DNA from: Prorocentrum cordatum
Lineage: Eukaryota; Sar; Dinophyceae; Prorocentrales; Prorocentraceae
DNA: 64,000 nucleotides
NCBI GenBank assembly: GCA_963575745.1
Contig: CAUYUJ010011270.1
Location: 248,001-312,000 of the forward strand
Reading direction: 5' to 3'
Below the pieces are notes generated by a model. That model saw nothing but the letters and a program-made list of their open reading frames with translations. It searched no databases and was not told the DNA's origin. This document shows positions 4,910 through 45,818 of this stretch, in pieces. The translations under genes and the position numbers were made by a program. Every line of letters begins with the position of its first letter. Position 1 is the first letter of the stretch.

Positions 4910-4914
4910 TCGTC
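4910..4914. other. target site duplication, left copy (TCGTC)
   Basis: TCGTC directly precedes the left LTR and is repeated directly after the right LTR (22,852-22,856). A 5-bp duplication is usual for Ty1/copia integrases. The flanks are low-complexity (cgtcgtc), so a chance match is possible, but the exact abutment on both LTRs supports it. Confidence 0.85.
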
Positions 4915-5111
4915 TGTGTATGGGGTTGAAGTACAAGGGCACAGAACCCCTGATCCGTTGGTAGAGGGAAGGAGGGATAGAGGGATGTCTTTCCCTCCTG
5001 CACGATCAAAGGTCTGATCGATCTGTCCCAATACCTGAGCCCAAACGGCCGGGCGCAGGAGAGGTGAGGATAAGGAGTATATATGAGGGTATTACACGGG
5101 TTCTATTCACA
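4915..5111 (-). repeat. element 1 3' LTR (197 bp)
   Basis: Direct repeat of 22,655-22,851, same length, 9 mismatches and no gaps. It starts TGTG and ends CACA on the plus strand. Read in the element's sense direction, it carries a TATATA box-like stretch about 30-40 bases from its start. Confidence 0.95.
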
Positions 5112-5122
5112 CCCCCCGCCCC
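5112..5122 (-). other. element 1 polypurine tract
   Basis: On the minus strand GGGGCGGGGGG abuts the 3' LTR, the expected place for the plus-strand primer of an LTR retrotransposon. It fixes the element's orientation together with the primer-binding site at the other end. Confidence 0.75.
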
Positions 5123-5803
5123 GAATCCCGCCTGTGAGGGTAGGACTCGGGAACCGAGGAAAAGAATCCGTCACCCTTTTACTCCGTTAATCCTCAGGTC
5201 TGCAGGCAGCTGAGCTTAAAGTCAGTAAGTCAGCAGAGCCTCAGCTGCAAAGCAAGGTAAGAAGGAACACCCTGGGTCCCGATTTCTTCGCCAAGCACGC
5301 TTCGGTGCCCCCCTCGGTGCGCCCCCCAAAACGCTTCGGCACTCGAGGGCGGAGAAGAATGAGACACGGGTGGGCGGAGAAAGAAGATCTGAGCAATACA
5401 GCAACTTGTAATCTGCCTCGCATTTGCGAGGCAGGTGTTGCCACCAGCTGTCAGATTATTATCAACGCAATGTAGTTATACTGTAATGAATATGCACGCT
5501 GAGATCGCGTTGATGAACACGATCGTGTTACGAAACGCAACTAGATATCAAAGCAAATGTCTGGCCAGACGAAAGGTCGTGTTGACAAACACGAAAGATG
5601 CATGTATGTAAATTCTATATGGCGACTCCCGTTGGCGTTGCTCCTTAGGAGGCAGCCTTGGTTATCGCAAAGATGTTTTTATGTGTGGCCACTTGTGTTG
5701 TATAGTGAAGTGGCCTAGAAGTATATAATAGCCACCGCTCTAGGCGAACTTGGATTAAAATGAAGTTCGAACCTTTCGAGCGGTGGGCCTTGCGGCCGAC
5801 TCA
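5123..5803 (-). other. element 1 3' untranslated region
   Basis: About 680 bases between the stop of the last accessory frame and the polypurine tract. No coding sequence is seen. It contains one copy (5431-5450) of the 19-bp motif GCAGGTGTTGCCACCAGCT that recurs inside this element. Confidence 0.6.
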
Positions 5804-8422
5804 CTACGTGTTGCCGTTCTTGTAGAACCTGCGGCCCCACATCCTACGGCCATCGTACGTCGCGTAGCTCGTCGCGAACGTCTCCCAAACTGTCCTCGGG
5901 ATCCAGTGAAGAAACCACTTGTTGTACTGGATGTCGCGGATGTATACGAACTCGTCGTTGTTCAGCGCGATGTAGATCCAGCAGTTGGTGTAGTAGCTCC
6001 AATACCTGATGCCCCAATGACTGTCCTCAAGGTCGTCGCGCCAATAGGCGGCGTAGTCTGTCGTACGCGCTCTCTTGGCGCGCGGCCCCGCGGGCATGTG
6101 GTCCGCCGCGCCAGAGGCGCTGGACTGTGCAGCATCGCCAGGGGCAGGGCGCGGCGGCGGCGGCGGATGGCGCGGCTCCATGGCATCATCAGACTGATGG
6201 GAGTGTGTATCAGGTTCGATCGGATCGGTTCTCATCCCTGAATCAACCCCCTTCTGGTCGGTGTGTGTCGGATCGAGGGAGCCCAACAACTCGTTAGCAA
6301 TCGCAGCAAGCTTGCGCTGCGTGACTTTCTCACGGGTGCCATCCCTTCTAGGTAGGGCAATCGTGACAAGTCCGCGAGCTTGCCGCGTTTGTCTGTCGAG
6401 TCTGCCCTCGTTCAGCCACCATTTCTTCCGACCAGCTTGGCCTGTCCTGATGCTGGTATCGAGGATCGTGCATGCATCGCGCATGTCGTCCACGTTCCAG
6501 GCCTTCTTGCCCACGTTCACGCGAGCGCCTGTCATTTGGTGGTGGAACTTCAAATCGTTGAGAAAACGCTGAACGAGATTGGCATATGGGTAGTACGGAG
6601 GTCTGTCGTCATCAGCCTCGCCCATCAATCTGCACTCGTGTGCAGGAGGGCGGCCAGAGTCGACCCGCTTCTGATACCTCTTCCTAGAGAAATTAGCCAT
6701 TCTCCTCAGCGGGTCTTTCTCATTACCTGGGAATGAGCGCGCGCCCGTCATGATGACTTGCGCTCCGTCTTTCATGTACCTCGTGATGTCATCCTGGGAG
6801 AGCGTCATCTTGATCCAGTTGGTCAGCTTGTGGAGGTATGCTAGGTCGCTCTGGACGGCGGCACTTTTACCCGTAGCACCTACGGCCACGGTGCACTGCC
6901 AACAGATGTCACAAAGGGTACCATCACCTGTAACAATCCCAAGGGATAAGTCTCGACCGCAATTCCGACATCGCGCGATATCATGCAGGATCGTTGCTGG
7001 GGCTCCCTCCGTCGTGAGGTGCTCACGAGATCCCCAGCGAGTATCCTGACCACGAGCAAGACTGCGGCCGATCTGATCCATGGCTTCGCGGTTGATCTCG
7101 GCGTTCGGTCGGGAAACGATTGATCTACCCAACCCCTCGATCTCGATCCTAGACAATCTTTCCCCTGGCAGTCCTATGTACTCTGTCGTGTCGTTGTCCG
7201 CATCCTCAGTATCACCATGGCATACGTTTTCAGTACGGAGACGTCGAGCCTTCTCCTGCAAGGCGAACTCGTTGTCGCCCTCCTCGCGGTTGACTCCCGT
7301 CTGCTCGGCAATGATCCGTGCCATGGTTTCTTGATCAGGAGCTGCGGATGCAACGCTGCCTGGGTCCTGGGGAATATCCTGCTCCGCGCCTGGGTCACGT
7401 GGTGCGGCAGGTGTTTCCACCAGCTCCGTCCATGCGGGGAAGTCTGGATTGCCGAATGTGTCGATGCAATGCGTAAATAGATCACGCAACGTTTGCAGTG
7501 CGGGATGTTTCTGGTGGATAGCACCTTTTGTGAAGTCACGGAGCTCCGCAATACTGTCCATCAACATGTTTTGATATACTTTGGAGATCCATTGAAAGAC
7601 GCCTGTAGTCGACTCCTCGATGGTCTCTGGATCCAGGTAGTGTACCAACTTTTTGAAAAAGCGGTCTGCACTGCAAATTGGTAAGTCACGTGCCCATTTG
7701 TGGGTATGATCATAATTCAAGTAGTATTTCTCTCCATTCCATGCTTTGGATCCAAATTGAATCTCAAAACGTAAGTGCGATTGTGTTTTATCAGCCACAA
7801 TTCTGTCCGCGCCAGTGTGCACCTCAATGATTTGTTTCATCTTTATCATAGGTGAATCCACCAACAACTCCGACGTCCAGCGGTATATGCGGCGGTCATA
7901 TGACTGTCTAATCCACTTTGAATCCTCCTCTGGGTCGTAGTCGGGGTGGTTGAGGAAGTCTTCTGGCGGGTCAATAACGTTGTCGAGTATGCTCGCATCA
8001 ACGTGCTCATCTGCTTGGATCTCTGCAAATAGATCTGCTCTCATATTTTCATTTGCTGCTTTTTCCTCGGCGGTAAGCGGTATGTTTGATATATCCACGA
8101 TAACGGTAACCAAAGGTTCATCAGATGAGCCTGCAATTTGGTGAGGTCCATCGTCCGCAGGAGCGGTATCTTCGGCAGGTGTGGCCACCAGCTCTTCGGG
8201 ATCGGGTGTCCGAGGAGCGGGCCGTCTGGTCGGTGTACGTGGAATGCGTGGCCTATAAATGCTCGGCATACCAAGATACGGCAGACTGCCATCTGTTTTG
8301 TGCTGAAGTATTTTATCACGGCACGAGGATGGTCCTTCCAGCACAGTATTCATATATGTCGGGTCAATGGCATATTCGTCGATACGAATTGGTGATGCAA
8401 AGACTACGCCCTGGAGAGGCAT
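5804..8422 (-). CDS. element 1 accessory ORF C (872 aa), zinc-ribbon-like, function unknown
   Basis: Uninterrupted frame from a true ATG at 8422 to a stop at 5804. I do not recognise the protein as a whole. Visible features: an acidic N-terminal third with proline/alanine linkers containing ATPAE and ETPAA; a four-cysteine cluster around residues 484-509 (CRNCG, then CDICWQC) that looks like a zinc ribbon; a basic stretch (KRYQKR) after it; a proline-rich and basic segment (PPPPPRPAPG, then RAKRARTT) near residue 770, possibly a nuclear signal; and an aromatic-rich C-terminus with many Tyr and Trp. It overlaps the end of the preceding open frame by 19 bases in another frame, so the three accessory frames are laid end to end. 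Codon use is ordinary and the frame is open for 2.6 kb, which argues for past selection. A single original polyprotein broken by frameshifts is the alternative. Confidence 0.65.
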   Translation of the reverse strand: MPLQGVVFASPIRIDEYAIDPTYMNTVLEGPSSCRDKILQHKTDGSLPYLGMPSIYRPRIPRTPTRRPAPRTPDPEELVATPAEDTAPADDGPHQIAGSSDEPLVTVIVDISNIPLTAEEKAANENMRADLFAEIQADEHVDASILDNVIDPPEDFLNHPDYDPEEDSKWIRQSYDRRIYRWTSELLVDSPMIKMKQIIEVHTGADRIVADKTQSHLRFEIQFGSKAWNGEKYYLNYDHTHKWARDLPICSADRFFKKLVHYLDPETIEESTTGVFQWISKVYQNMLMDSIAELRDFTKGAIHQKHPALQTLRDLFTHCIDTFGNPDFPAWTELVETPAAPRDPGAEQDIPQDPGSVASAAPDQETMARIIAEQTGVNREEGDNEFALQEKARRLRTENVCHGDTEDADNDTTEYIGLPGERLSRIEIEGLGRSIVSRPNAEINREAMDQIGRSLARGQDTRWGSREHLTTEGAPATILHDIARCRNCGRDLSLGIVTGDGTLCDICWQCTVAVGATGKSAAVQSDLAYLHKLTNWIKMTLSQDDITRYMKDGAQVIMTGARSFPGNEKDPLRRMANFSRKRYQKRVDSGRPPAHECRLMGEADDDRPPYYPYANLVQRFLNDLKFHHQMTGARVNVGKKAWNVDDMRDACTILDTSIRTGQAGRKKWWLNEGRLDRQTRQARGLVTIALPRRDGTREKVTQRKLAAIANELLGSLDPTHTDQKGVDSGMRTDPIEPDTHSHQSDDAMEPRHPPPPPRPAPGDAAQSSASGAADHMPAGPRAKRARTTDYAAYWRDDLEDSHWGIRYWSYYTNCWIYIALNNDEFVYIRDIQYNKWFLHWIPRTVWETFATSYATYDGRRMWGRRFYKNGNT

Positions 8423-8694
8423 GTTTTGTCATTGTACCATAGGTTTACCCATCGTGAACCGTAGTTGAGAATAGGTATCTGTACCGCGAAGAACTTGTCA
8501 AATACTCCGAAATGAATGATTGGGCCATATATGTGGCCCTTATTCATGGGGACCTTGGTATTGTGATTGCCCTTGGGGTAGTGATTGTCATAATGACAAC
8601 ATTTGATAGATCCCCAATTCTTAATGATAATGAAATCCCCCATGCGAACATCATTAAATGCAGGCCGACGATCCCAATCTTTTTGTGTAATATT
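8404..8694 (-). pseudogene. element 1 continuation of ORF B beyond a TAA
   Basis: Past the TAA at 8695-8697 the same frame stays open for about 97 codons (NITQKDWDRRPAFNDV, later MGDFIIIKNWGS) and reads like ordinary globular protein. It ends only where ORF C begins. ORF B was therefore probably about 875 residues long before this stop arose, or the stop is read through. I favour a mutation, given the other stops in this copy. Confidence 0.5.
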
Positions 8695-11028
8695 TTATGT
8701 AATAGGTCGAAGAGCCCCTCGGCAGTATGACAGGGCAACTAACCATTCTTTATCATCTGCTGTGTGATTGGTGTCCGCAATCATAGCACGTACCATTTGC
8801 GCATCCAAGGCATCGGCTCCAGATATGCGGCTAGCAGGGGTTGCCCCCAGCTGGGCCGAAGGTGCTGATGCTGACGTTGTCCTTGGCTGCTCCATGTCCT
8901 GATCCGTGTCAGCAGGTGTAATCCCAGGAGGGTCGTCGATGAACTCTCCAGGAAGATAGGCGCACATTTCGTACTTGCTCAATGGCGGTCTCGCGGCCAA
9001 TGGCGGGTAGTCCCATGTGGGGCCGTCCGGCCATATCTGCTGGCCGTGCATGTGATGTGGTTTGAGGCGGCGAATTGCAATAACTGCCGCAGCTGGAACC
9101 ACGTCCTCTGTCATGATAGCGCCTTGAGCGGCCAGCCAAAATCTGCAACCAGCTTTTGTGGCGATCTCCATATTGATCACTAGCTCGACCTCGTTCTTGT
9201 AGTGATTGAACTTATATGACTCTACTGAGGTGTGGGGATTCTTCTGGACATTGTCTAAATATGTGCTGGAACTGAAGAATGCCTCCATGCGCTGTGATGG
9301 TTTATGATGCTTGTCTCTCTGAGAAGATGGATCGACGTAGCCTGGAATGATCCCTGTCTTCAAGATGTTGCGCCAAGCACGGAGTGCTGTGCCGTGGTGG
9401 AGGTATTTCACGTCTGTCCATTGTAGGCTCTCCCAACCCATATTCCATGGTTTGGAAAGTGGGTTAACGCAACTGTGACCTCCAACACATCGAATGGCAA
9501 TGACGCTGTTCCAATCGAAACAGCTGGGGTCACCTCCCTCGGGGATTGGTTTGGCGTATATCTCGATTCTATTTTTCTGCGGATCAATAGGTTTCTGGAA
9601 CGCACGAATGATGAAGATCGGGTAATAATCGTTCCAATCGGGATACCCAACTTTTCCACCATCTTTCTTGAAGTGCGAGACGGCCGCGTCCATAGACGGT
9701 CCGTTGTGGTTATTGCGATCTTTGAATTTCCATTGAACCATTTCCTGAAAGGGTTTCCAATTACTTGGAATCTTCCATTCACGATCTGTTGTCTTCGTCC
9801 AAATGTTGATACGTCTATCGTGAAATTGATTGATCTGGAACTTTTTGTAGTGAATCTCGTGGCGTAACATGGTCGTGATGTATTTGCTCATGTATTTGGT
9901 TGCTCCCAACCATTCATCATCAAGTAACTGGGGACCATAACGTACGTCGTCGTAATTTGGTAACGATATCCACTTCCATTCTGGAAAGCAACCAGACTGT
10001 GCAATATCGGGCGCGTGAGCAATCACACTATCATCGTGTAACAGTTGCTCGTGCCAGTCATTGTTTTGCAGGCAGGCGAATCCATTGATCGCGGATGTAC
10101 CCCGCAATACTGGACATACGTACGGATGGTCGTCCTTGATGCCCGCTTGCAGCTTCCACTCTCGAATAGTGCATGCGTTATCGAACATCCCGACCTGGCT
10201 GATGTCCTCATGCATGGAACGCTCGCAGCTGTCCTGCCATGATAATAAATTCATCTCGCGTGGAGAAGATTCCTCTTCGGCAGGAGTTGCCTCCAGCTCC
10301 ATAGCCTCTAGGTCAGTGCCGTCGTCAGGGATCGGTACCGCCTCAGCTTTTGGGAGCTGATCTGCTGGCTGCTGGTCTGCTGTTGGTCCAGGAGTTGATG
10401 ACTTTGGCACGGCTATCGATTGCGGGCCAGGTTGCAGTGGCTCAGGCAATGGGCCTGGTGGGGCTGGCTGTTCCGCATCAGCCGCCGCACGCCACACGGA
10501 CGTCGGAACATCAGGATCATATCCCAATGCCACGCGATCTAGTGCATTCTGTCTGAAGAATGTTTTGCATGCTATGATGGTCCGCTCGTTCTCGGCAGCA
10601 GGGCCGATACAATGAGATGTCAACCTGTTGTTTTCCGCAGTGAGTCGTGATTTGGTCGCGTTATCATCTCCATCCAAGTCGGTAATCTGTTGTAGAAACT
10701 GCTCGAACACAACCCAAGTAACTGCATGTGCATCTTCAACCGCTTTAATGATCTTGGGGTGGAGGAGCTCTTGTTTCTCGACTGAATTCCAGGATGCCCA
10801 AGCCCCAGGGTAGTCGTTGATCAACAGTAGGAAGTACTGGAATAAGCCGTCGTATGCTGGACCAAATTGATCATTTTCAGGGATAGCCTTGTTTGGCTCG
10901 CGAGGATCATGTGCTGGTGTTCGTATCGGCATTCCAGGAATGGGTTCCGCTGTGTCGCCTGCGTCAGCAGGCAGTGATGCCGGCAGTGTACCATCGGCAC
11001 ATGATGCCATCCACGCACAATGAGCCAT
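8695..11028 (-). CDS. element 1 accessory ORF B (777 aa) with Tpt1/KptA-like RNA 2'-phosphotransferase domain
   Basis: Frame from an ATG at 11,028 to TAA at 8695. Residues 1-330 are acidic and proline-rich with linker motifs (EATPAEEE). From about residue 380 the motifs of Tpt1 enzymes appear in order: KYITTMLRHE (Arg389-His390, like the N-lobe LRH), AIRCVGGHS (Arg513, His518; family IRAxQGHS), LHHGTALRAWRNILKTGI (residues 543-560; family HGTxxxxWxxIlxxGL), QRMEAFFSS (Arg580; family R-x-HIHF), and VELVINMEIATKAGCRFWLA (family evlI-x-id...GixFy-S). Tpt1 transfers an RNA 2'-phosphate to NAD+, finishing tRNA splicing. The spacing between the LRH and GHS motifs is longer than in yeast Tpt1, and I cannot place the last catalytic Arg (SGMR), so activity is uncertain. 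A role in handling primer tRNA or tagged RNA is speculation. The start overlaps the end of ORF A by 65 bases in another frame. Confidence 0.6.
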   Translation of the reverse strand: MAHCAWMASCADGTLPASLPADAGDTAEPIPGMPIRTPAHDPREPNKAIPENDQFGPAYDGLFQYFLLLINDYPGAWASWNSVEKQELLHPKIIKAVEDAHAVTWVVFEQFLQQITDLDGDDNATKSRLTAENNRLTSHCIGPAAENERTIIACKTFFRQNALDRVALGYDPDVPTSVWRAAADAEQPAPPGPLPEPLQPGPQSIAVPKSSTPGPTADQQPADQLPKAEAVPIPDDGTDLEAMELEATPAEEESSPREMNLLSWQDSCERSMHEDISQVGMFDNACTIREWKLQAGIKDDHPYVCPVLRGTSAINGFACLQNNDWHEQLLHDDSVIAHAPDIAQSGCFPEWKWISLPNYDDVRYGPQLLDDEWLGATKYMSKYITTMLRHEIHYKKFQINQFHDRRINIWTKTTDREWKIPSNWKPFQEMVQWKFKDRNNHNGPSMDAAVSHFKKDGGKVGYPDWNDYYPIFIIRAFQKPIDPQKNRIEIYAKPIPEGGDPSCFDWNSVIAIRCVGGHSCVNPLSKPWNMGWESLQWTDVKYLHHGTALRAWRNILKTGIIPGYVDPSSQRDKHHKPSQRMEAFFSSSTYLDNVQKNPHTSVESYKFNHYKNEVELVINMEIATKAGCRFWLAAQGAIMTEDVVPAAAVIAIRRLKPHHMHGQQIWPDGPTWDYPPLAARPPLSKYEMCAYLPGEFIDDPPGITPADTDQDMEQPRTTSASAPSAQLGATPASRISGADALDAQMVRAMIADTNHTADDKEWLVALSYCRGALRPIT

Positions 11029-14000
11029 TTCGCCTGCCGTCTGTCATCAGCGTCGTGAGGCTGAGATCTCTTTTCCATTCATTTGTCATCTTTTCTCTGA
11101 AGTCGAGAGCAGCCATGATCTCTTTGGCCTGTGTGTAGGCCTGCTCATCCGTGACAGGAATCAGTAATGGCGCCCTGAATGGATATGGTTGAGAGGGCAG
11201 TGACTGAATCAAAGCGCAGAAGTTACGATAGCATACTGCGTCGCAGAACTGTGTCGTAAACATCGCCATGCTATGATTGTTCTGTTTTGCATGCCAAGCC
11301 TGCGGGGTAATCCTATCGTACGCCTCAACCCAGTGATCTGATGGAAGAACAGTAATACCACGATTTTGCATAATCCTGATCAGGTCGTTCGTGTGGTAAT
11401 CAAAGTTCGGGTGTACGCCCCACTGTGCTGCTTTGCCAGGGCCCATGACTGTGGGACAGCGGAAGTACTGCATCACATCGACAAAACGTGATACGTCCAC
11501 TTGTACGTGTATTGGCATGAGCGTCGGGACGCCACCCTCGCATTCCATTTTCTGGAGGTCATATACGTCAGTAGGTGCACGATTTTGATGTCGACGCATG
11601 TCCACGGTGTTCTGTCCGTGGTTGGCGCATGCAATGTCATTCGCGCTCCATACCACCATGGCATTGAGGCCCCTGCAATAATGTCTTTGTTTTACATATG
11701 CAAGAAAATCATTGGCCCAGTAGCTCCAGATAGCCTCGTTTAACTCGCGCCACTGTTTGATGGAGGCATTCTCGCTGTGTAACATGAGGCCTCTGGCATC
11801 GCGGATCATCTTGATCATGTTGCGCTGCTCGAGGGTGCACTCAAACTGGTTGTTGGGAATAGCTGTGGTACGGGTTTCTTGTGTATCGAAACGCTGGTTA
11901 CGCAGTTCCTCCATGCCATAGCGGGTGTCTCCACCAGCCTCTGGCAATCGAACGCAATCTTGGCCTATCGGCGTGTCGTTCTGTCTAAACCATTCTTTAT
12001 ACTTGCCAAAGGAGAATGCCCACATCATGATGTCGTCGCGGATCATGGTCGACAAATGCTCGAGGGTAGCGCCGCCCATGTATTCCGCGCGATTGAGGCA
12101 CGGCATACATAGCGGTACAAGGGCAACGTTTGATGCCTTGGCGAGATCTTCTCGCTTCTGTACATTGTTGAGCTCGTCGATGCCGTAAGTTGGGTACTTC
12201 TTGTGTTTTGCACTTTTGGCCCCTCTCTTGGGCTGCATAATCAACGTTGAATCAGTGCACAAGTTGGCCCATTTGTATGCGTGCCCTGATGGACCACATG
12301 CATGATGCAAGAGTAGTCCCAAGTCTTCTTGTACGAGGGAACACCACCCATTATCTGAAATAAGAATAGAAACCAAACGACCACCACAGAAAGCGCTGTA
12401 CTTTGCTTGATCCAGCTCGAGTGGGTCAATATCAGGACCAGGGGTAAGACCAGGGTCGATCTGGTCGGCGGCTTCGCCAAAGAAGTCGTTGCCCTCGTTG
12501 TATGCTTGCCAACGATAGGTACTTGTCATATCCCCGTCATGATCTGATATTGCCACCCAGCCTTCTGGATGATCGGATGGTGTTGCCACCGTCTTGGAGT
12601 ATGATCCGGTACCTCCGAAACCTCCGCGCGCCGTCAGCCATGTGGTGAGCTTGCGGCGAAATTTGCTTGTCTGGTTAAGGTCGGAAAATGCTCTCATGTT
12701 GGTGGCCAAATTATCCTCAACAATGTGGCCGATGTGTCCAGATGTATCTGATGTCCTGGCTACGCCAGGTGGGCGTGTAGGTAACTTGGCCGTTGTACGA
12801 TCAAGTTTAGGAGCACAGCATGGAGTTATCAATCCATTGCTGTATACATCGGATGGTGCACAAAGACCATTTGGATAATAGATTTGTGTCTCCTGAACGC
12901 TGTCCTCGGCATACTGTCCCAGTACTGCACTGCCAATCTCGGACAAATCGTGGTGAATCATCATCCACTCCATTTTCAATATCATCGTCGTAAAGTTTTC
13001 TGGTGGGCACTTGCGGTGCGTTCCTGGGATCACCGCGTTCAAATGATCATGCAGACCACGAACACTGTCTTGTACAGACGGATTACGATTGAAGAGACTG
13101 GAAAGCATACACATAGCCCGCATGAATGACAGCCACGGTGTAGCCGTAAACGTGCTGTAGTCATAATTGGCGTCGCCGCCGACTGATCCACTCGTGTCAT
13201 TGATCCAACTCTTGACGTCGGCGGACGCAGAGCGGGCAATTTCTCGAATAGTGGATTCGTCGGGTACGCGGAGATCAAACTCTCCACTGCGATCAGCACG
13301 CCGTTGATGTATGTATATGTAACCATCATCAGGATCACGAGGACGGCCAGTTTGAGCGTGGCACGTGAAGCCCACGCGGTCGTCGTCCTTGGCGTTCGAG
13401 TCGTACTCAACGTCGTAGCCGATGGGCCAGCCGATGAGGTTCAGCGGCTGTGCCTGATCCATCTCGTGGATGGGGGTATCGGGATTAGAACCGATCCCGC
13501 TTATTTTAGCCTTGCACGCGGCGAACAAGATGCCTGTAAGCTTTGTAGCTCGAGTCGTAAAATTGCTGCGGCATGAACGTATAAGTAATGTCCTAAATCT
13601 CTCTGCATCTTGTGGAGGCGAGGGAGGATGGCGGGGATGTCTACCGTGCGGGGAACGTGCGCGTGAACGAGGTGTGCGCGACGCAATAGCTGCGGCCGGT
13701 ACACCAATGTGGTACATGCATGCGCATATTCCCTCGTGATTGGCTTGTCCCACACACCGAAATCCACATTCTGATCCTACTTCGCCCCATCTTTCTTTTT
13801 CTGTAAGTAATATTTTGCATACTTCCGGGCATCCATCCAGTTTTGGAGGTTCCGCAACATGAGGTAAACCATCGGGCCTCCGAGGCCCTCGCAGTGGTTT
13901 CCAGGGTTTCTTTGGAGGGCACTGTATCGGGGCAGCGGGAAAGATGAGCGAGTGTTCCAAAAGATCCCTCCAGAGGTCTGCTTTCTTCGTCTCGAAATGT

Positions 14001-14080
14001 TTGGTCATCATATCTGCGATCTGCTCCTTTGTACCTACGTATTTGAGCTCGATATGTTCGAGTTGGCATGTCTCGCATAT
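10964..14080 (-). CDS. element 1 RNase H tail fused to accessory ORF A (unknown)
   Basis: Open frame in phase with the RNase H frame upstream, separated only by the TGA at 14,081. The first about 40 codons are the copia RNase H C-terminus (LEHIELKYVGTKEQIADMMT, matching the family 'lkYV.TkeQiADilTK'). The remaining roughly 970 codons have no equivalent in ordinary copia elements and match nothing I know. Seen in it: cysteine pairs near the start (CPEVC, CGFRC, CACM), a long hydrophilic body with several CxxC or paired Cys (ITPCCAP, LCMPCLN), and many Trp. It ends in a TGA at 10,964 inside the start of ORF B. The fusion suggests ORF A was made as the C-terminal part of Pol and released by the protease. 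Function unknown. Confidence 0.6.
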   Translation of the reverse strand: MCETCQLEHIELKYVGTKEQIADMMTKHFETKKADLWRDLLEHSLIFPAAPIQCPPKKPWKPLRGPRRPDGLPHVAEPPKLDGCPEVCKILLTEKERWGEVGSECGFRCVGQANHEGICACMYHIGVPAAAIASRTPRSRARSPHGRHPRHPPSPPQDAERFRTLLIRSCRSNFTTRATKLTGILFAACKAKISGIGSNPDTPIHEMDQAQPLNLIGWPIGYDVEYDSNAKDDDRVGFTCHAQTGRPRDPDDGYIYIHQRRADRSGEFDLRVPDESTIREIARSASADVKSWINDTSGSVGGDANYDYSTFTATPWLSFMRAMCMLSSLFNRNPSVQDSVRGLHDHLNAVIPGTHRKCPPENFTTMILKMEWMMIHHDLSEIGSAVLGQYAEDSVQETQIYYPNGLCAPSDVYSNGLITPCCAPKLDRTTAKLPTRPPGVARTSDTSGHIGHIVEDNLATNMRAFSDLNQTSKFRRKLTTWLTARGGFGGTGSYSKTVATPSDHPEGWVAISDHDGDMTSTYRWQAYNEGNDFFGEAADQIDPGLTPGPDIDPLELDQAKYSAFCGGRLVSILISDNGWCSLVQEDLGLLLHHACGPSGHAYKWANLCTDSTLIMQPKRGAKSAKHKKYPTYGIDELNNVQKREDLAKASNVALVPLCMPCLNRAEYMGGATLEHLSTMIRDDIMMWAFSFGKYKEWFRQNDTPIGQDCVRLPEAGGDTRYGMEELRNQRFDTQETRTTAIPNNQFECTLEQRNMIKMIRDARGLMLHSENASIKQWRELNEAIWSYWANDFLAYVKQRHYCRGLNAMVVWSANDIACANHGQNTVDMRRHQNRAPTDVYDLQKMECEGGVPTLMPIHVQVDVSRFVDVMQYFRCPTVMGPGKAAQWGVHPNFDYHTNDLIRIMQNRGITVLPSDHWVEAYDRITPQAWHAKQNNHSMAMFTTQFCDAVCYRNFCALIQSLPSQPYPFRAPLLIPVTDEQAYTQAKEIMAALDFREKMTNEWKRDLSLTTLMTDGRRNGSLCVDGIMCRWYTAGITAC

Positions 14081-15424
14081 TCAATCCAGGTTGTTACGAT
14101 GAGTACGATGAAGATGACGAAGTGCTGGTGTACGTCCTTTTTGGACACTTTTGATCACGGCCTGGTTATCCTCGAGGACGATAAGACGCACTTTGGGAGA
14201 ACTAATCTCTTGAGCCGGTTCTGGATCCACGTGCAATACTGTACCCTCATGGGATATTGTACGTCTCTTTGGAGGCGTGTGTAATTCCGCATTTAGCGGT
14301 AGTTGCCTACGGCTAGGAGAAGATCCCCGTGTAGGGGGTGCCTTGCGAGGCGATGGCTTACGCTTCTTTATGGCTGCCAACGTCGGACACATTGCCGGGT
14401 CGGCGTGTCGATGGCAGCTCAGGCATGTATTCTTCTCTTTGCATGTTTTGGCAATTCCCACCACGGCTTCCCAGAAAGAGAGTAGTGGTAATCCTTCCAG
14501 TCGTAGTGCTGAGTCAAGAGCAACGATCTCGGATTCAGTAGATGAATGTGACACAACCGTTTGTTTCTTGCATACAGCGCTGACTGGGAAGAACGCATTG
14601 GGTCCAACAAGCGCGGCGAAAACGCCGGTAGTGGATTTGGATGCTGTAATGCAATCAGCGAACGAGGCGTCAGTGAAGAGCATGATGGATAACTTGTCTG
14701 ACGAATCACCTATCCATCCGTGCAAACAATGTGTACGCGTCGTTTTGATGTAGCATATCAACCGATGTAGACGTTTATCACACGTAGCATTCCATTTGGT
14801 AATTTCTCTGGCCAGCATACATACTGCATGTAAAAGATCGAAACGACAGCAACGTGCCAGGTAGAGGACCTTCATTAGTACACTCGCCGCGTCCTGGCCA
14901 AGGATGCCCTCGTCGGAATAATCGGAATCATTGAAGGAGGTGTCCTCAATGCCAGGAGTTTCGGCGTCAGGTAAGTCATCGTATGTGACTGGTATGGGAT
15001 CTGTCGTAGCAGATGTCGTGTCGACCGATTTTGCTGGGCTGGATGATCGTGGCCGTGCATTGAGCACAGTAGTAGGTCTGGCGACCGACCCGGAGGATGC
15101 GGGCGATTTGGATCGAAGTCCTCGGCGAGTCGGATCGTTTCCGACGTGACCCTGGTCCCTGGGCGCGCTTGGAGGCGCATTCCAGGTATCGCTCAATGCA
15201 CTGATCGGTAAAACCAAGCATATCATGTCGAATTCCACGAACCTGTTTGGCCGTATTGTAATCCTTCTCATTGTGTACGGGCAACATAGGGCGTATGGTA
15301 GACATTCTTTTGTCGAACATAATCTGCGGTACATCATATGCTTGTTGTCCACAACCAAGATATTGTGAGTATGGAGTAGGTGGATCCAAGTCAATACCGC
15401 TTTTGCGGATATAATCCCAGCCAA
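14081..15424 (-). pseudogene. pol: element 1 RNase H
   Basis: Copia RNase H region following RT. Visible are the connection SVLMKVLYLARCCRFDLLHA, the first catalytic block LFTDASFADC, the block SHSSTESEIVALDSALR with the catalytic Glu, and VLEDNQAVIKSVQKG followed by RHLHRTHR. An insertion of about 80 residues rich in Ser, Pro, Arg and with a CxxCxxxxD-like cysteine pair sits between the second and third blocks. The frame ends at a TGA (14,081-14,083) exactly where the family has a conserved Trp (usually 'lDWl'), so a single TGG to TGA change is the simplest explanation. It joins RT by a frame change near 15,150-15,200. Confidence 0.8.
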
Positions 15425-16093
15425 CCCGTAGATTGTGAGCTGGGCCGGCTAATTGAAAATCGTCCACATATACTGAAAGTATCAGTCCCAGTTTGTTGTG
15501 TCTCCATACACATTCCCATCCTGAAATAGGCTCGAAACCAACGCTTTCTAAGCATGTACGGCATTTTCGTTCCCAAAAGACACCTGCGAGAGGGTGTCCG
15601 TATAGTGCCAATCGTAACCGGCACACTGGATTCTTGTATTTTGACCATGATGTCGGTTGTCGCCATTTAGGTATGGTAATCCAAGTATCGACTGGATCGA
15701 TTCGTCCGTCGCCGTATAATAATGCCTGTGTGTAGGCTCCAGGTGCATCACTTCTCCCGCATATTGTGGCAATAATGCAGTAGCATCGCAAAGTTTGGAA
15801 GCCTCAATATGCGAAGCACTGGAAGCGGCGTCGGCGAAAATTGCGGCCAAGCCAGTTTCATATTTGCCTGTATTGCCTTGAACCACCACTCTGCCCTTGA
15901 ATTTACGTAGATCAGGTGGAAGTTCCTCGTGTTTGACTGAAGATAGCTCCAAGATATTGAAGAAATGAACTTTCGTCCCAGTGTGGATAGCTTGTGACTC
16001 AATATCAGCTTTTCCTGCAACAGTCTCCAACATCCACGTTTGTTTCTTTTCCAATCTCTCGTATTCTTTTCGTAGGGCTTCTTGTGCACGTGG
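14976..16093 (-). pseudogene. pol: element 1 reverse transcriptase
   Basis: RNA-directed DNA polymerase of copia type, split over two frames. The N-terminal part (frame ending 15,548) has EKKQTWMLETV, then FKGRVVVQGN and LAAIFADAASSASHIEA. A one-base frame change at about 15,745-15,755 leads into SDAPGAYTQALLYGDGRIDP, then CRLRLALYGHPLAGVFWE and the catalytic LSVYVDDFQLAG (aspartates near 15,459-15,464) and YLGCG. In the first frame the region follows a TAA at 16,094 that interrupts the otherwise continuous lead-in from the integrase linker. All polymerase motifs are still legible, so the damage is recent relative to the fold, but this copy cannot make one continuous enzyme without frameshifting. 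Confidence 0.85.
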
Positions 16094-17350
16094 TTATGCG
16101 GCAACTTCTTTCTTACTCAGGCTTCTGGTAACTAGGGCCAGGCGTGACCATGAGGAATCGGGTATTTTGTCTCTGTGTGCCGGTGTGTAGGTGGTCTCAC
16201 GTGGCATAGTTGGTATTGCTACCGACTGGGTGAACTGGCGTATGAGCGGGTTCATGGTCCCCAAGTCGGTTCCTTCACTATCCACAAGTACCAAAGCACG
16301 TTCTTCTTCATCGTGCTGTTGTGGTGATTGGCGGTAGCACAGTACCGTAGTAATATCACGTGGCCCACCAGGTAATTTGGCATACAGTATTTCTTTGTTC
16401 GTCACGCCTTTGACGTTTTCGTCGCGGATGACGTCGCCATTGTCAGTGTCGTATGTAATCCGTCGTTCCACAGTATTCCATGTGGGTCCGCCGGATGCAG
16501 TGGCACGGAAATTATTGACCTGTTTGTCCTGTCTTGTCCACACTCGTAGTGCAGCTCGATCACGAATCTCACGAGCTCGTTTAACGTCGTCGGCGTATTC
16601 GATTTCCTTCTTCTGTTGTCCACGAGATAGTGTTTTCCAATGCTCGGGAAGAATGTGATCAGGACGTGTAGTAGTCTGTATACGTGTTTCGCGTCCGCGG
16701 ACCACCATTTTGCCGTCTGGCGTTATTTTTGGAAGCTCATAGAATCGAATCGTGCCTGCCCGCGGCTCGCTTAACTCTCTGTGGTCGTTGGCGCTGACAC
16801 CGTCCCAAACATCGCGAAAGTCACTTTCTCCTTCAAAAGTAGAAGTCGTCTTGAAATCTCGTGTCACGTCGAGTTGATCAACAGGTACAGGTATGTTCAT
16901 GACGTCGTCCGTCGGGATGAACAATTTCTTGCGTGGGGCACGAATATGTCTGATGACGCAATATCCGCGCTGTTCCCAGTAGTCGGGCTCCGGCGCTGGT
17001 GCAGCAACTTCAGAAGCCGATGCGTGGATATCAGCGGCGTTGTCTTCCGTAGTCATCATAGATGGGTCATCCCATTCTTCAGGATAGGAAAGTGGAGGAT
17101 CGGGCATTGGTTTATCACCCAAAGGGCGAGAAGTGGATGCCTTGACCTCGTCGTGTGCCTCAGGGTTATGATGTCGTAGAGTACCTTCTTTCACTGGGTA
17201 GGTGAACTTGCCATCAGGGATGATGATGTCTTTGACTCTGTGCACGTGACACAGTTCACCATCAGGATTCTTGGCGTATGTAGCCGCGTCCAAGACAAGG
17301 TAGTCACCTGACCATCGTCCACCAGAGTGTAAGTGGTAACCCATGGAATA
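16094..17350 (-). pseudogene. pol: element 1 integrase C-terminus and linker to RT
   Basis: Open frame continuing from the integrase after a one-base frame change at about 17,345-17,352 (frame 1 reads GYSMGYHLHSGGRWSGDYLV, the copia 'GifvGY....W.gdylV.d' segment). Then comes a long hydrophilic linker with acidic and Pro/Ala-rich stretches (APAPEPDYWEQRGYCVI), and a C-terminal part that normally leads into RT. It ends in a TAA (16,094-16,096) followed in the same frame by RT sequence (QEALRKEYERLEKK). Confidence 0.75.
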
Positions 17351-18311
17351 ACCCTTCCCGAGTATTTTCTTTAAACTTTGCAGTCTCGTTGTTAATCTCG
17401 GGGTTGAGGCATTTCCAGAAGATCCGAGCACCGAATGGCATGTAGTGCCCGGGAAAGCTTTCGCCAAATCGTATTTCATGAGCTGTCTTATCTGCATGTT
17501 CCTCATTGAGGGCAGCAACGCCCGTGGATGTATGCACAAAATTGTGTCCACAGCAAAAGGCTTGCATGGCCTCTTTCCACCATTCGTGTCCCAAACCAGA
17601 CATCTGTAACACAGCTCTCGCACCGAGAATGACAATTTTGACGACGCGCTCGATCAATCCATTTGTTTGCGGACGATGTGGCGTACTCGTGTCGTGTCTC
17701 CATCCCAGTTGGCGGCAAGCCTTCTGAAGCTCTCCAGAGTTGTCTGTGTAGATGTGCTTCACCTCATCGTTTGCGGCGATGAAATGTTGAAAGGATGCCT
17801 TTGTGGTAGCTGCGTCTTTGTGTAGTGCTGGGTAGGCCATGAAGATGCCGGTGTATCTGTCTAGGACAACAAGTGCATACTTGTCGCCGTGTTTGTCTGC
17901 GGCATCGTCTGTGGCCAGGACGATATGGTCGGCAGTTAAAGCCTCACCAAACTTCTTCGGGACAAAAGCCTCGTAGGCGTTATCCTCGTCGGTGGGGTCT
18001 GCCGGTGTTTGTGGCTTGTGCTGTCGTCGACACGGGGCATTCTGCGCCATCGTGCGAGAACAAATCTCACAGTCAGGATGTTTTGGGCTGTGAGTCATGT
18101 AATGCATCGGGTCGATCGGTTTCTTCTGTCTGTTGGGAAGAACTCGATCATTGTCGTGATGCATTCGTGTGGACGTCTCTGTCGGTATGTCGTTATCTGC
18201 TTGAGCTATATCTACTAGCCCCCCGCATTGTGGAGGAGGACACTGCGTCTGAGACGTAGGCGAGTCGGTGGGTGTGTCCACGTTAGGCTCGTCTGTGTTT
18301 GTGTCGGAAGG
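17304..18311 (-). pseudogene. pol: element 1 integrase core
   Basis: Integrase inserts the cDNA into the genome. Seen here: the zinc-binding HHCC remnant THSPKHPDCEICSRTM, then the catalytic core with the three acidic residues in order: ADHIVLATDDAADKHG (first Asp), IYTDNSGELQ (second Asp) and PHRPQTNGLIERVV (Glu). PFGARIFWK follows. The frame is the same as the protease frame upstream; only the TAA at 18,312 separates them. Its 3' end runs past a frameshift into an unrelated tail (17,304-17,345). Confidence 0.85.
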
Positions 18312-19058
18312 TTATTCGACCGTGGTGGTCCGTGCTCCTCCTCCCTCTCCGACATGTGGTCTCTTGGGGCAGGTCCCTATGTGGGGCCGTAGCTCTTCTG
18401 CAGTGGTTGACTGCTCTGTAGTTTTGCAGCACCAACAAATGTCGTTGCAGCGGGCGGATGAACGCTTGCGCTGACGACGTCTGGGTGCTGGCGAAGTGCA
18501 TAGGCGCGGTGGTGGTATCAGTGTCAGGTCGTCGAGTCGAAATTCTGGAACTCTATTGTTGACTGGAATCTTATACCATTGGCCCCCCGGATCCTGAAGC
18601 AAGTAGCCCAGCTCAGGATCCCAAAGCTGCCGAAAGCCATCAACCTCGATGAATTTCCCAACTGATAGTAAAGATGGACAGTCTGGCAAGGCAAGGGCTG
18701 AACTGTGTAAACCAACCTCGGGTAGCCGTATGTCGTAGTGCTCGTTGACAGTACGATCACCATTGGCGGTTTCCAGAATATGCTCTTCGCGAATAGATAT
18801 GCGATCCGATTCGGTCTGCGTCAGTTCATGTTTTCCCTGAATATGATGGGCAGAACCACTGTCGAGAACCCGAGATCGTGTCAATGCAGCAGTCGAGCGT
18901 GGTGGGTCGACTTGCATTGTCGTTGTCTTCGTCTGGGCTGTCTTTGATGACTGCTTAACAGTGTCGTCATATTTTCGGATCGCAGTTGGTGTGGCCACCG
19001 ACTCTTTATTGCGTCGGTAGTCATACAGGTCGTCGTGCCATAGCTGTGCCTCTTTTTG
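18312..19058 (-). pseudogene. pol: element 1 protease
   Basis: Aspartic protease that would process the polyprotein. The active-site triad appears as RVLDSGSAHHI (copia proteases have LDSGAsxHm), followed by ISIREEHILETANGDRT and LLSVGKFIE. The C-terminal part has the CWCCK-like cysteines and a basic tail before a TAA at 18,312. It is reached from Gag by a -1 frame change at 19,052-19,058, where the minus strand reads CAAAAAG; upstream of that point the Gag frame gives sensible sequence and downstream the protease frame does. Confidence 0.8.
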
Positions 19059-21157
19059 ACATCTCGTAGGGCGTCCGCACTTTGATCCCACCATCGTTGT
19101 GGTAACGGGTATGGTACATTGACAATGTCACCCTCGTTCGGCATCTCCTTCCATTTATCCAATCTGGCCCTGCCAGATACGGCATGTAAATAGTATTCCA
19201 CGTTACGTATGTCGAAGCGTATCCGACGACGTGTTTTGGTAGATGTCGCTGTGGCCTTAGTGTTGGCCATGAAGGTCTTGTCACGGATGACGTAACTGCG
19301 GTCGGAACGGCGTGAACGTCGAAAGTTGGCAGGAGAACGTGCTCTAGCGTGGGGTGAGCCACGGGACGAACCGTGGCTCGGGGAACGTCTGCCACGTCCT
19401 TTGTCACTGCCATATGATCTATCACGGCCGCGTGGACTACCGCGTCCGCCGCCACGATTGTCTCGCCCTCGGGAGGTAGATCTCGAAGATCTGTCGCATC
19501 GACTTCTCGATTGACTGCGAGAGTCTGGGGACCTCCTGGATGTTGAACGAGATCGGTCGTATTGGCGTCGGTTGTCACGTCCATGGCGTGAGTCGCTTGC
19601 GTAGCGGAACCCCCCGCGTTGTGAAGAACGTTGGCTTCCTGATCCGCGGGGTGGTGATCGGCCGCGGCTATCCTGACTGGAGGTCCGTGGTCGACTCGGG
19701 CTTCGCTCGGGAGTCTTCGCACCAGGTGTAAGATGAGCATATTTGCATTTATCGCCTCTTGGGCATTCATTCTGTGCGAAATCTTTACACTGTGCGACGC
19801 GTGGAAAGTTACACTTGTCGCCTCTGGTACATGTGTTGCGCCTGGCGAAATCGAAGCAAAATGGTTTCGATGCTGGCTTCTTGTGGTTCGCAGGAGTGGA
19901 CATGCTGCGGCGGGAGTTGCCACGAGCCGTCGATGTTCTGGAAGATTCGTTGTTCTTCCAATCCCTGGAATATGTATGCAAAGCCTTGCGCCGTTCACCA
20001 TTGCGACAATTGCCTTTCTTCCAGGCAGCGCACACGTTGACTTGAGAACGTGTCTCATGTTCGTACCGTAACTTATTTTGATTATTCTCCAATTGTTTAA
20101 GCTCCAGTATGTCCAGGACACGCTGTCGGAGCCAATCGTAGGTACGATTCGGGTCGCTGATCTCCATGCGCTGGTACTCGTACATGTCTTGTTTCATCCA
20201 GGCATGTCTCCGAATCTGTGTACGAAACAAAGATTCCAGGATCTTTGGATCGGGTGCTTCTCGGCACTCCAAAAGTAAAGCGCCCCAGTCAGTAATAAAA
20301 CGTTGCAAATCGTCATCTCTCATCCTTAGTTCTTGAAGGCGCTCAAAGTCGTGCAGGTCGTCATCAACCCCTGTCACTTTGTAGGACTGTAGGATATGCC
20401 AGTGAATCTGGCGTCCTTTGAGCATGCGTCCTGCTTTGTGCTCTCTGGTTTCGATGAGCCTGATTTGGTAGCGCAAGTCCGAGGATAAGATGTCGCTCAG
20501 AGCGGTAGCGAGTTTGCCATCGATGCTCTCAAAGTCTCCACTGTCTTGTAAGTCCCCGAATGTACATTCGGGCTGTTCAGCCACGCATAGGAAGGCGCAT
20601 GCTTTGGATGGTCGCCCTGAGGCGGCCCCGAAGTTCTTCCGTACTTTTTGCTGCCACTCGAGCAGCTGCGTGATCTTAAGCAAGACAGGGACTCGGACGG
20701 TGTCTGACTCCTTGATAGGAGTTGTAGTATGGACCGAAACCGCAGACAGTGGTTGCGAGGGCATCGGTGCACCGTCAGTAGTTAGTTCTGTGCGCACAGG
20801 AGACACATGGCGTGTCTGTGCAGAAGCTGCCGCGGAGGCTGCTCCTGGTGACGTACGTCGTTGTTGTCCTGCGGAAGCTTGTGGTGCTTCGGCGGACGCT
20901 GCCGTCGGCCTGTGCAGGTCGGTTGCAGGTCGAAGGTGGAAATTGGTGTCGTTGGTGTGGTCGATCAGCTGATTCGTCCAGCTCGTCATGTCCTCGTGTA
21001 TTTGTGCCACCTTTTGGCGTGTATACTCATCAGTATCCCGAGAACGTTGTGAGTGCCGATCGAGTCGTTGCTCGTATGCTCGGAGACGGGCGCTTTGCGT
21101 CTCCAGCTCGCTTTCCAGACGTGCGAGGTGACCCTCAACGCGTACCTTCTCAGTATC
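18881..21157 (-). pseudogene. gag: element 1 Gag, C-terminal part with CCCH zinc fingers
   Basis: Nucleocapsid-like half of Gag, in phase with the coiled-coil half upstream and separated from it by one TGA. Contents in order: end of the coiled coil (about 50 codons); a helical capsid-like domain around residues 110-320 of the frame (LLKITQLLEWQQKVRKNFGA through DILELKQLENNQNKL); then three cysteine clusters near residues 327-427, the last a canonical CCCH finger (CKDFAQNECPRGDKCKYAH); then a long Ser-Arg dipeptide-rich tail resembling SR proteins. Most copia Gags have a CCHC knuckle; CCCH fingers are an alternative RNA-binding module. It ends at 18,881 in the frame overlapping protease. Confidence 0.8.
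19052..19058 (-). other. element 1 candidate -1 frameshift site
   Basis: On the minus strand the heptamer CAAAAAG lies at the point where the Gag frame must move back one base to enter the protease frame. The A-site codon pair can re-pair well after slipping, but the first position is C and not A, so it is not a perfect X-XXY-YYZ site. A one-base indel in the A run is the alternative. Confidence 0.35.
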
Positions 21158-22507
21158 TCATTCACGAATAACCTGGGGGAGCTCCAACTGCGCGTGGTCC
21201 GCCGCCTTCTCAACCTCCTGCAACCTGTCAGCGAGGCGGGCGAAATCGTAAACCGTGGGAGGAGAATCCAGCTGGCCAGTCTGGGCTCGTCCGACACGCA
21301 ACTCTGCCAGGGCGTCCTGTACATCAGGAAAACGCTGCTCGATTTCAGAGATCCGGTTAGCGAGTGGCTGCACGACAGCGTTGGTCGCATCAAGCCTTTG
21401 AGTGATGACTCTCTCAGTACGCTGCAACATGTCGATCAGGTTCGACGAGTTGGCGTGCGCTTCGTTGCGAAGCGTCGCCGTAGTGTGGTCTAGGTAAGAT
21501 CGAAGATCATTGATCTGAGACTGAACGTCGCCAAGGTCGGTGGCCTCGGCTGGTGTTGGTCGGTTGCGGAGCTGGTCGTGGATCTCGTCATGTAAAATCC
21601 TGACTGCTGAAACGCCTGTGTCGCGTGCGAGCACAAGCTGTTGCTCCATCTGCGCGAGGTAGTTGCGCAGGTTCTCGACCATCGCCGTTCGTTCACCTGA
21701 GTGTGACACCTCACGATCAACCTGGTACTGCAGTTCACCTATGATGCGTCGATCTTCGGCGATCCTGGAATCAATGATCCCTAAGACGCCGTCCAGATCG
21801 TGGCGCATGGCTGCAGTATCGGCGGCGTTCGTCTGAACGCTCTGCAATAGTCCAGAGTATTGTCTGGGCACGAAGGTTTCAACCTGGTCTCTGAGCTCAG
21901 CTATTTCACCTGCGGCGGACGTTTCCGCCATCTGGTCGTCTGAGATGGAGAGGTGGGGAGCGTCAGCTTCCCTGTGTCCCCTGTCACGGGGAGTGCATGG
22001 CCTCTGAGAGGCAGTACGCGGGCTCGACCTACTCTCGCCGCATGGGCCTGGGGCTCCACGGCGGTTGCGCGCGGACGAGCTGCGACTCGGACCATGTGTG
22101 TGTGGTGTCTCATCCGAGGATACCTTGGGGTACTGCGTCTGCGGCTGTGCCGCCACTGGTCTACTGAATTCCTCGAAGGTGGCTACGTGCTCCGCAACGG
22201 GGACGGTCGCAGGGCTGGGAGTACCAGCGCCTGAAGCCCATCGGCGGTTAGCGCGAAAGCGCCTTGGAGCGTCAGGACCAGTAAGGCTTTCGCCTGACGC
22301 GGTTGGGATTGCTCCCGACAGAGGAGGGGATGGAGGATCGAAGGTAGGCGTGTGAAACTCCTTCCTTCCTGTTCCTACTCCTTCTCCTGTCCCCCCGCGG
22401 GCGGCGCTGCGGTGAAGTTCAGCAGCTAGCCGCGCCTCGGGTCCGTCGGAGCTGGGGGGGGGCACCTGGGACACCAACACAGTCCGCACTAAGGCTCTCA
22501 AACTCAT
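21158..22507 (-). pseudogene. gag: element 1 Gag, N-terminal coiled-coil part
   Basis: Starts at the first in-frame ATG (22,507) and runs to a TGA at 21,158-21,160. The frame is open upstream as far as 22,771 inside the LTR, but has no ATG there. The first about 190 residues are Pro/Ser/Arg-rich and disordered. From about DDQMAETSAAGEIAELRDQV onward it is a long heptad-patterned coiled coil (ELQYQVDREV, LRNYLAQMEQQLVLA, LPQVIRE). The heptads continue in the same frame after the TGA, so the stop breaks one original protein of about 1,200 residues. No domain with a named function is visible; the role would be particle assembly. Confidence 0.7.
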
Positions 22508-22642
22508 CACCGAGCCGTCGCGCCGTCGGAGAGCTCGTACGCGAGGCCCCGATGGACCCCTTGCGGCGCATGCGCCGCTTGGGTTCCATCGAGGCCGCGT
22601 GCGAGGTCGCAACGTGTGGTTCGATGAAAGGTGAGCTTTCAA

Positions 22643-22654
22643 GGGCTGATAACC
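22643..22654 (-). other. element 1 primer-binding site, half-tRNA type
   Basis: Directly inside the 5' LTR the minus strand reads GGTTATCAGCCC. It does not start TGG, so it does not pair with a tRNA 3' CCA end. It agrees at 10 of 12 bases with GGTTATGGGCCC, the complement of the anticodon region of initiator tRNA-Met, the primer site used by Drosophila copia with a cleaved half-tRNA. The match is by memory of that system. Confidence 0.5.
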
Positions 22655-22851
22655 TGTGTATGGAATTGAAGTACAAGGGTACAGAACCCCTGATCCGTTG
22701 GTAGAGGGAAGGAGGGATAGATGGATGTCTTTCCCTCCTGCACGATCAAAAGTCTGACCGATCTGTCCCAATACCTGAGCCCAAACGGCCAGGCGCAGGA
22801 GAGGTGAGGATAAGGAGTATATGTGAAGGTATTACACGGGTTCTATTCACA
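22655..22851 (-). repeat. element 1 5' LTR (197 bp)
   Basis: Partner of 4915-5111. As the 5' LTR it should carry the promoter; in sense direction an ATATA-containing stretch lies about 30 bases in. The Gag frame is open through its downstream half. Confidence 0.95.
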
Positions 22852-22856
22852 TCGTC
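22852..22856. other. target site duplication, right copy (TCGTC)
   Basis: Directly follows the right LTR and matches 4910-4914. Confidence 0.85.
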
Positions 22857-45230: not shown

Positions 45231-45700
45231 CTTGACACCGTCGTAGGTGAAGTATGTGGCGTCGCTGACACCGTCGTAGAAGAAGTATGTGGCGTCGCTG
45301 ACACCGTCGTAGGGGAAGTATGTGGCGTCGCTGACACCTTCGTAGTAGGAGAAATATGTGGCGTCGCTGACACCGTCGTAGAGGAAGTGTGTGGCGTCGC
45401 TGACACCGTCGTAGAGGAAGTATGCCGCGTCGCTGACACAGGCGTAGGAGAAGTAGCTGTCGTCGCTGCTGAGGGTGGGAAAGAAGATGGGGTTGCTGGC
45501 GTCGCTGACGCTGGCGTTGGAGCTGGCAGGGATGTAGGCGTAGTAGGCGTAGTCGCTGGCGTCGCTGACGCTGGCGTTGGTGCTGGCGTCGCTGACGCTG
45601 GCGTTGGTGCTGGCGTCGCTGACGCTGGCGTAGATGCTGGCGTCGCTGACGCTGGCGTAGGTGCTGGCGTCGCTGACGCTGGCGTAGGCGTAGGCGCTGA
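45231..45700 (-). repeat. element 2 leader minisatellites
   Basis: Two adjacent tandem arrays just upstream of the Gag ATG: about seven copies of a 33-bp unit (45,235-45,440, GTATGTGGCGTCGCTGACAC) and about six or seven of a 27-bp unit (45,500-45,690, GCGTCGCTGACGCTGGCGT). Both share GGCGTCGCTGAC. Unit lengths are multiples of three, so the Gag frame stays open through them (VSDATYF and VSDAS repeats), but no ATG starts it. Confidence 0.9.
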
Positions 45701-45817: not shown

Positions 45818-45818
45818 C

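Follow-up and report, generated by a model that had tools for sequence, protein, structure and literature searches.

Can a retrotransposon carry an enzyme whose usual job is the clean-up of spliced transfer RNA (tRNA), and what would it gain from doing so? The question is raised by a 64,000-nucleotide stretch of the dinoflagellate Prorocentrum cordatum (hereafter the window; GenBank assembly GCA_963575745.1, contig CAUYUJ010011270.1, positions 248,001 to 312,000 of the forward strand), in which a minus-strand frame at 8695-11043, open over 782 amino acids, holds a domain of the RNA 2'-phosphotransferase family Tpt1/KptA. The element around this frame, decayed in the copy at hand, belongs to a large copia-type long terminal repeat (LTR) retrotransposon family of P. 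cordatum, here termed family A, whose polyprotein, contained in frames of up to 5671 amino acids in other copies, carries the Tpt1 domain downstream of reverse transcriptase (RT) and RNase H. In family B, another LTR family of the same genome, a Tpt1 domain is encoded on the Gag side. The best explanation overall, to which we give even chances, is that retrotransposon-borne Tpt1 would strip 2'-phosphates from RNA associated with the element.

A preliminary description of the window had placed five Tpt1 motifs, in order, in one open frame of an element that it called element 1. Both the order and the frame hold, and the Pfam comparison it proposed comes out in its favor: PTS_2-RNA (PF01885) is the sole Pfam family of the frame (E 7.7e-7, 29.8 bits, above the curated cut-off of 26), with a match spanning frame residues 385-646, or 9106-9891 on the minus strand. 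The excised domain scores 34.6 bits against the same profile. All three NCBIfam families matched by the excised domain (E 0.0046 to 0.12) and the one matched by the whole frame are RNA 2'-phosphotransferases, with scores far under their cut-offs, and the single PHROGs match of the frame is again an RNA 2'-phosphotransferase (E 1.8e-4). PF01885, and no other Pfam family at E<=0.01, was detected in each of the 21 family A genome copies scanned. Profile-profile comparison of family A with cellular Tpt1 gave an E of 1.8e-4 and a probability of 49%, while the best of 20 column-shuffled control profiles reached an E of 0.024 (2%). With a narrow, mostly plant, custom Tpt1 profile the frame ranks first among the 750 frames of the window, and 50 rounds of shuffled frames gave no match to that profile; the E value of only 0.03-0.1 counts against the assignment. 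So do a phmmer search of family A against PDB, which reached Tpt1 chains at E 2 only, the family A profile, which found no Tpt1 chain in PDB, and a search of proteins with the entire frame as query, in which none of the 7998 candidates scored reached E<=0.01. Structure prediction, a check proposed in the preliminary description, speaks neither for nor against the two-lobed Tpt1 fold (a winged-helix RNA lobe plus an ADP-ribosyltransferase lobe): a model built on the Tpt1 alignment resembles Tpt1 and is not independent of that alignment; the model from the single sequence is meaningless (predicted local distance difference test score of 32.5). On profile evidence, we consider the PF01885 membership of the family A frame firm, though this copy is very diverged.

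Known Tpt1 enzymes depend on an essential tetrad, Arg-His-Arg-Arg, which grips both phosphates (2' and 3') at the splice junction (PMC6333775). The corresponding positions of family A, assigned by alignment to cellular Tpt1, are R25 and H26 (9859-9864), R149 (9490-9492, within IRCVGGH) and R216 (9289-9291, within QRMEAFF, aligned with the arginine of RxHxH), all on the minus strand. The first three do not vary among the 21 copies; the fourth is present in 20 of 21, as is the HGT motif of the NAD+ lobe, which reads NGT in locus L038. This conservation bears on the possibility that the family A domain has lost catalysis and now has an RNA-binding or structural role within the polyprotein. Great divergence, a missing HxH motif, large inserts and the lack of any significant relative in single-sequence searches would fit such a loss. 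However, the near-complete retention of all four catalytic positions and the recovery of PF01885 from every copy scanned lead us to regard it as rather improbable.

What carries the domain is evident from the flanks of the frame. A 198-nucleotide direct repeat at 4914-5111 and 22654-22851, with nine mismatches and including one extra shared G, brackets the Tpt1 frame. The LTRs themselves lie on the minus strand at 22655-22851 (5' LTR, 197 bp) and 4915-5111 (3' LTR), read TGTG...CACA in element orientation and enclose the frame, which therefore does lie inside element 1. GACGA flanks both sides as a target-site duplication, with its upstream copy at 22852-22856, in low-complexity surroundings, and its downstream copy at 4910-4914, both given for the minus strand; the element between them measures ~17.9 kb (4915-22851). 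A putative primer-binding site, GGTTATCAGCCCTT (22641-22654, minus strand), adjoins the 5' LTR, and a purine tract, GGGGCGGGGGG (5112-5122, minus strand), adjoins the 3' LTR. Family A thus shows what defines a Ty1/copia element: TG...CA LTRs, a 5-bp target-site duplication, an adjoining primer-binding site and a purine tract. Between the LTRs follow, in order, a Gag-like frame, integrase, copia-type RT, an RNase H-like frame, a 1038-residue frame, the Tpt1 frame and an 874-residue frame. The integrase frame (335 residues, 17304-18311, minus strand; rve, E 7.3e-7, 29.8 bits, cut-off 32.6) precedes the RVT_2-type RT frame (275 residues, 14976-15803, minus strand; E 3.3e-6, 27.3 bits, cut-off 31.6), and both score slightly under the Pfam cut-offs in this copy, which shifts frame several times, as a decayed one would. 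The RNase H-like frame (455 residues, 14081-15448, minus strand) was recognized by eye and has no Pfam match; its TDASFAD... stretch is presumably the RNase H motif.

The domain could nevertheless be an accident of this copy, that is, a set of chance motifs or a host gene caught once, as the weak single-sequence scores might suggest. A search of the 4.13-Gb genome refutes this reading, which we hold to be barely credible. The window Tpt1 domain has at least 134 matches at 86-100% identity (134 scored of 1564 candidates), and the window RT has at least 140 (140 scored of 4051 candidates). The two lists of matches share 33 contigs, paired by hand, and on 31 of them a single strand encodes both, RT preceding Tpt1 by 4988-5477 bases; the pair is not shown on the other two, C13199 and C19675. 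Four of the 31 have RT and Tpt1 in phase and in frames of the same length (C1598, 5671 amino acids; C4002, 5597; C268, 4886; C9957, 4721), so the two domains share one uninterrupted frame there. To this near-constant spacing and shared frame is added purifying selection. Among 21 copies (the window and 20 of the 133 other matches), the domain has a mean pairwise synonymous difference (pS) of 0.317 and a nonsynonymous difference (pN) of 0.054, giving a ratio of 0.17, and the ratio is 0.16 among nine copies with long frames; the family A Tpt1 domain thus appears to be under purifying selection. The preliminary description had proposed looking for copia RT and Tpt1 on one element in dinoflagellate genomes, and in P. 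cordatum they are found together; its central proposal, that a copia-type LTR retrotransposon encodes a Tpt1/KptA-family domain, stands for many copies rather than for one.

The 5' LTR edge was read in four further family A copies, and the primer-binding site is identical in all five copies, window included (window, L057-L060). Only the window copy and that on C1598, whose target-site duplication is CTTCT, were read at both ends. In L057-L059, the two termini of the LTR form a perfect inverted repeat of 9 bp, TGTGTATGG...CCATACACA.

Family B emerged from a genome-wide PF01885 search in which the best 150 of 2877 candidates were scored; since the window copy is not among these, copy counts are lower bounds. 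Seven of the 150 rows (L001-L007) are of other kinds, and the remaining 143 score 71-92 bits. All 17 of the 143 that were read, picked for their long frames, have a nearly identical Tpt1 domain, which scores 87.9 bits against PF01885 in L009. The motifs RH, RASQGHS, HGT and GRSHIHF are intact in each of the 17, so that family B keeps HxH (RSHIHF) after the fourth arginine. The best solved relative of the domain is human TRPT1 (7yw3, E 9.9e-13); to judge by these comparisons, family B Tpt1 is more canonical than that of family A and human-TRPT1-like. It lies on the Gag side, in an open reading frame (ORF) of ~2940 amino acids in the copies read at length, together with a zinc knuckle (18.7 bits, under the cut-off), a RING finger (34.6 bits, over the cut-off) and a retropepsin-like stretch recognized by eye. 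Past an in-frame TGA follows a pol ORF in which RVT_2 scores 31.4 bits (cut-off 31.6) and an integrase-like stretch was again recognized by eye. Three of the four copies compared have LTRs, of ~255 bp and 97-99% identical, flanked by 5-bp target-site duplications (GGGGC, AGGTG and TGGTC), and the element measures ~16 kb. Directly after the LTR stands the primer site TGGTAGCGGAGC, which 13 of 14 copies match without a difference. With its RVT_2-type RT, LTRs, 5-bp duplications and primer site, family B also qualifies as a Ty1/copia element. The pN/pS ratio of family B Tpt1, 0.22 (16 copies), points to purifying selection much as in family A and is comparable with the ratios of 0.18 for the knuckle, 0.12 for the RING finger and 0.23 for the protease stretch, found in 8, 11 and 4 loci, respectively, within the sequence covered.

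In all four family B copies read at this point (L014/L029, L030, L031 and L032), the gag-protease ORF stops at the in-frame TGA, whose surroundings, TCTTCATCTTGAAGATGG, are identical, and in L029 and L030 the long pol ORF continues in the same frame past it; the TGA is possibly a readthrough signal. A pyrimidine-rich tract, CTCCGTCTCCTCCCCTCCCG, stands just before the 3' LTR in place of the usual purine tract (L029 7040-7070, L030 and L031), and the LTR termini, ACTTT...CGACT, differ from TG...CA. Upstream of the integrase, the pol ORF (L029 198-6062) contains a stretch resembling an S-adenosylmethionine-binding methyltransferase, VDMLELCGGEGG, noted by eye and with no Pfam match. In L016 (C19443) and L018 (C13489), the frame extends upstream to 4482 amino acids through a stretch that is open in all six frames. 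Among the seven rows of other kinds, a single frame of L005 (C13309) combines Tpt1 with a histone stem-loop-binding (SLBP) RNA-binding domain; L006 (C15736) and L007 (C16367) include a near-identical second locus and a decayed one.

Did the two families inherit one captured enzyme? Comparison of the seven frames of the window element with family B gave a best E of 0.2 (L001-L028) and of 0.087 (family B pol ORF), none significant. Profile-profile comparison found no direct similarity between the Tpt1 domains of families A and B (probability 0.5%), and a tree fails to place the family A domain, which sits on an end branch of ~10 changes per column; two separate captures are at most suggested by this. 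A scan of viral contigs yielded no relative of the family A domain. Family B Tpt1 has no match at E<=0.01 among the 297 long-protein candidates scored and no relative in phage records. Both families share the PF01885 profile with cellular Tpt1/KptA/TRPT1 and keep its Arg-His-Arg-Arg and HGT motifs (20-21 of 21 copies in family A, 17 of 17 in family B); unlike the cellular enzymes, the family A domain lies within a retrotransposon polyprotein, is very diverged, contains inserts and lacks HxH.

Two precedents are already in print. KptA occurs in the polyproteins of Beihai picorna-like virus and Botrylloides leachii nidovirus (PMC9503650), where an RNA-based element likewise includes it as one domain among others in a large polyprotein, but those carriers are RNA viruses, not LTR retrotransposons that encode RT and integrase. 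Capture of cytosine methyltransferases by retrotransposons has also been described in dinoflagellates, for SymbioLINE-Dnmt and SymbioDIRS-Dnmt3 (PMC5890265). They too have acquired an enzyme that modifies nucleic acid, but the enzyme is a DNA methyltransferase and the carriers are of the LINE and DIRS types, rather than copia-type LTR elements with an RNA 2'-phosphotransferase. A literature search by titles and abstract openings, with partial coverage (few subscription papers and preprints), showed no report of a retrotransposon with Tpt1 among the papers listed, and the word "phosphotransferase" is absent from the available text of PMC6338049 and PMC5890265. What is new here is apparently the capture of Tpt1 by copia-type LTR retrotransposons, in two occurrences.

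What might the enzyme do for the element? Because the tetrad is kept under selection, and because the domain belongs to a Gag-side ORF in family B and to the polyprotein in family A, the simplest reading is that the substrate of Tpt1 is RNA accompanying the element. We infer that it removes 2'-phosphates after cut-and-ligate repair. Firstly, the enzyme would travel with the proteins and RNA of the element. Element-associated RNA, that is, the genomic RNA and perhaps its tRNA, would be cut by RNases that leave cyclic phosphates and rejoined by a yeast-type ligase. Tpt1 would then use NAD+ to remove the 2'-phosphates from the rejoined RNA, and finally, the cleaned RNA would stay stable and copyable. 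A related case comes from yeast without Tpt1, in which the 2'-phosphate on rejoined HAC1 mRNA accompanies renewed cleavage and blocks Xrn1 (PMC6456296).

The main rival to 2'-phosphate removal is ADP-ribosylation, with the domain acting as an ADP-ribosyltransferase on RNA ends or on host proteins and so protecting the RNA of the element or countering host defense. The NAD+ lobe of Tpt1 is homologous to ADP-ribosylating toxins (PMC6333775), the NAD+ half is the better-supported half of the family A domain, and the RING finger in the Tpt1 ORF of family B is a possible protein-targeting module. The phosphate-reading tetrad is kept, however, including its residues in the RNA lobe, and it would be superfluous in a pure protein ADP-ribosyltransferase; we therefore take ADP-ribosylation to be unlikely.

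The preliminary description had floated a link to processing of primer tRNA or of ligated RNA ends. In the primer scheme, a tRNA half would serve as primer at an internal-type site, and Tpt1 would ready it by mending its end. The family A site, GGTTATCAGCCCTT, resembles an anticodon arm by its letters and does not vary among the five copies, and it resembles the internal kind found in FunCo1, a copia element whose site is complementary to an internal tRNA region (PMC5445492). Yet the best host tRNA matches only 10 of its 14 positions, a score that 108 of 400 shuffles also reached, among 40 tRNA genes read of 62 matched, a set from which initiator Met is absent. The primer tRNA of family B was likewise not found in this set, and no tRNA gene was detected in the window or in the 26 loci scanned. 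Moreover, the TGGTAGCGGAGC site of family B is near TGGTAGCAGAGC, the 3'-end tRNA-Met primer site of metazoan GalEa (PMC5445492). Since family B keeps Tpt1 despite this 3'-end-type site, priming by half tRNAs probably does not explain why both families have the enzyme. A cyclic-phosphate end would, in addition, need opening by another enzyme, and none was seen. With no fitting tRNA among the 40 and a 3'-end-type site in family B, the primer-tRNA link is unsupported in the form given in the description, and we rate primer healing as quite improbable. The likeness to these elements concerns the primer sites: no Tpt1 is mentioned for GalEa or FunCo1 in the available text of PMC5445492, and fungal GalEa elements measure 5.4-7.0 kb there, compared with ~17.9 kb for family A and ~16 kb for family B.

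Returning to 2'-phosphate removal, several considerations weigh against it. In family A, the HxH that follows the fourth arginine of RxHxH is missing and the sequence reads R[MTS]EAFF; this motif is common among aligned Tpt1 relatives and lies outside the essential tetrad. The RNA lobe of family A is weakly supported, as it is residues 172-283 that carry the profile-profile match. The window element has no recognizable cyclic phosphatase, kinase or ligase domain, and the mechanism presumes that P. cordatum has a ligase of the predicted kind, one that leaves 2'-phosphates, and assumes that a 2'-phosphate blocks the family A RT. The 20 copies behind the family A ratio were chosen rather than drawn at random, none having a stop in the domain and many having long frames, and dead copies may be mixed into the pN/pS sets. 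Enzymatic activity, expression and packaging are, for both Tpt1 domains, predictions from sequence.

In a broader picture, to which we give less than even chances, LTR retrotransposons of this dinoflagellate would have acquired an RNA 2'-phosphotransferase at least twice, on the Gag side in one case and downstream of RNase H in the other, and would now rely on it for in-particle RNA repair that erases ligation scars (or for ADP-ribosylating RNA). If true, this implies that 2'-phosphate chemistry is the route by which the host attacks or rejoins the RNA of retrotransposons. The wide spread of Tpt1, for example in bacteria, has been a longstanding conundrum (PMC6333775), and two retrotransposon Tpt1 domains under apparent selection offer a setting in which the enzyme presumably serves an element and not the spliced tRNA of its host. 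Cutting and religation of retrotransposon RNA in cells thereby becomes testable, as does 2'-phosphate removal (or ADP-ribosylation) as part of a contest between host and element.

The remaining frames of the window element lie on the minus strand. The Gag-like frame (758 residues, 18881-21157) contains a CCCH zinc finger (zf_CCCH_4, 36 bits, cut-off 29). The 1038-residue frame after RNase H (10964-14080) has no family in Pfam, NCBIfam or PHROGs, and the 874-residue frame after Tpt1 (5804-8428) has a best Pfam E of 0.55 and no family in NCBIfam or PHROGs. Elsewhere in the window, a second, more intact copia element (37483-45884, minus strand) encodes RVT_2 (67 bits) and rve in one frame of 1987 residues; a Gag-like frame, in which a CCHC knuckle is weakly matched, comes before it. 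Finally, 47960-49720 is a tandem array that is open in several frames on both strands.

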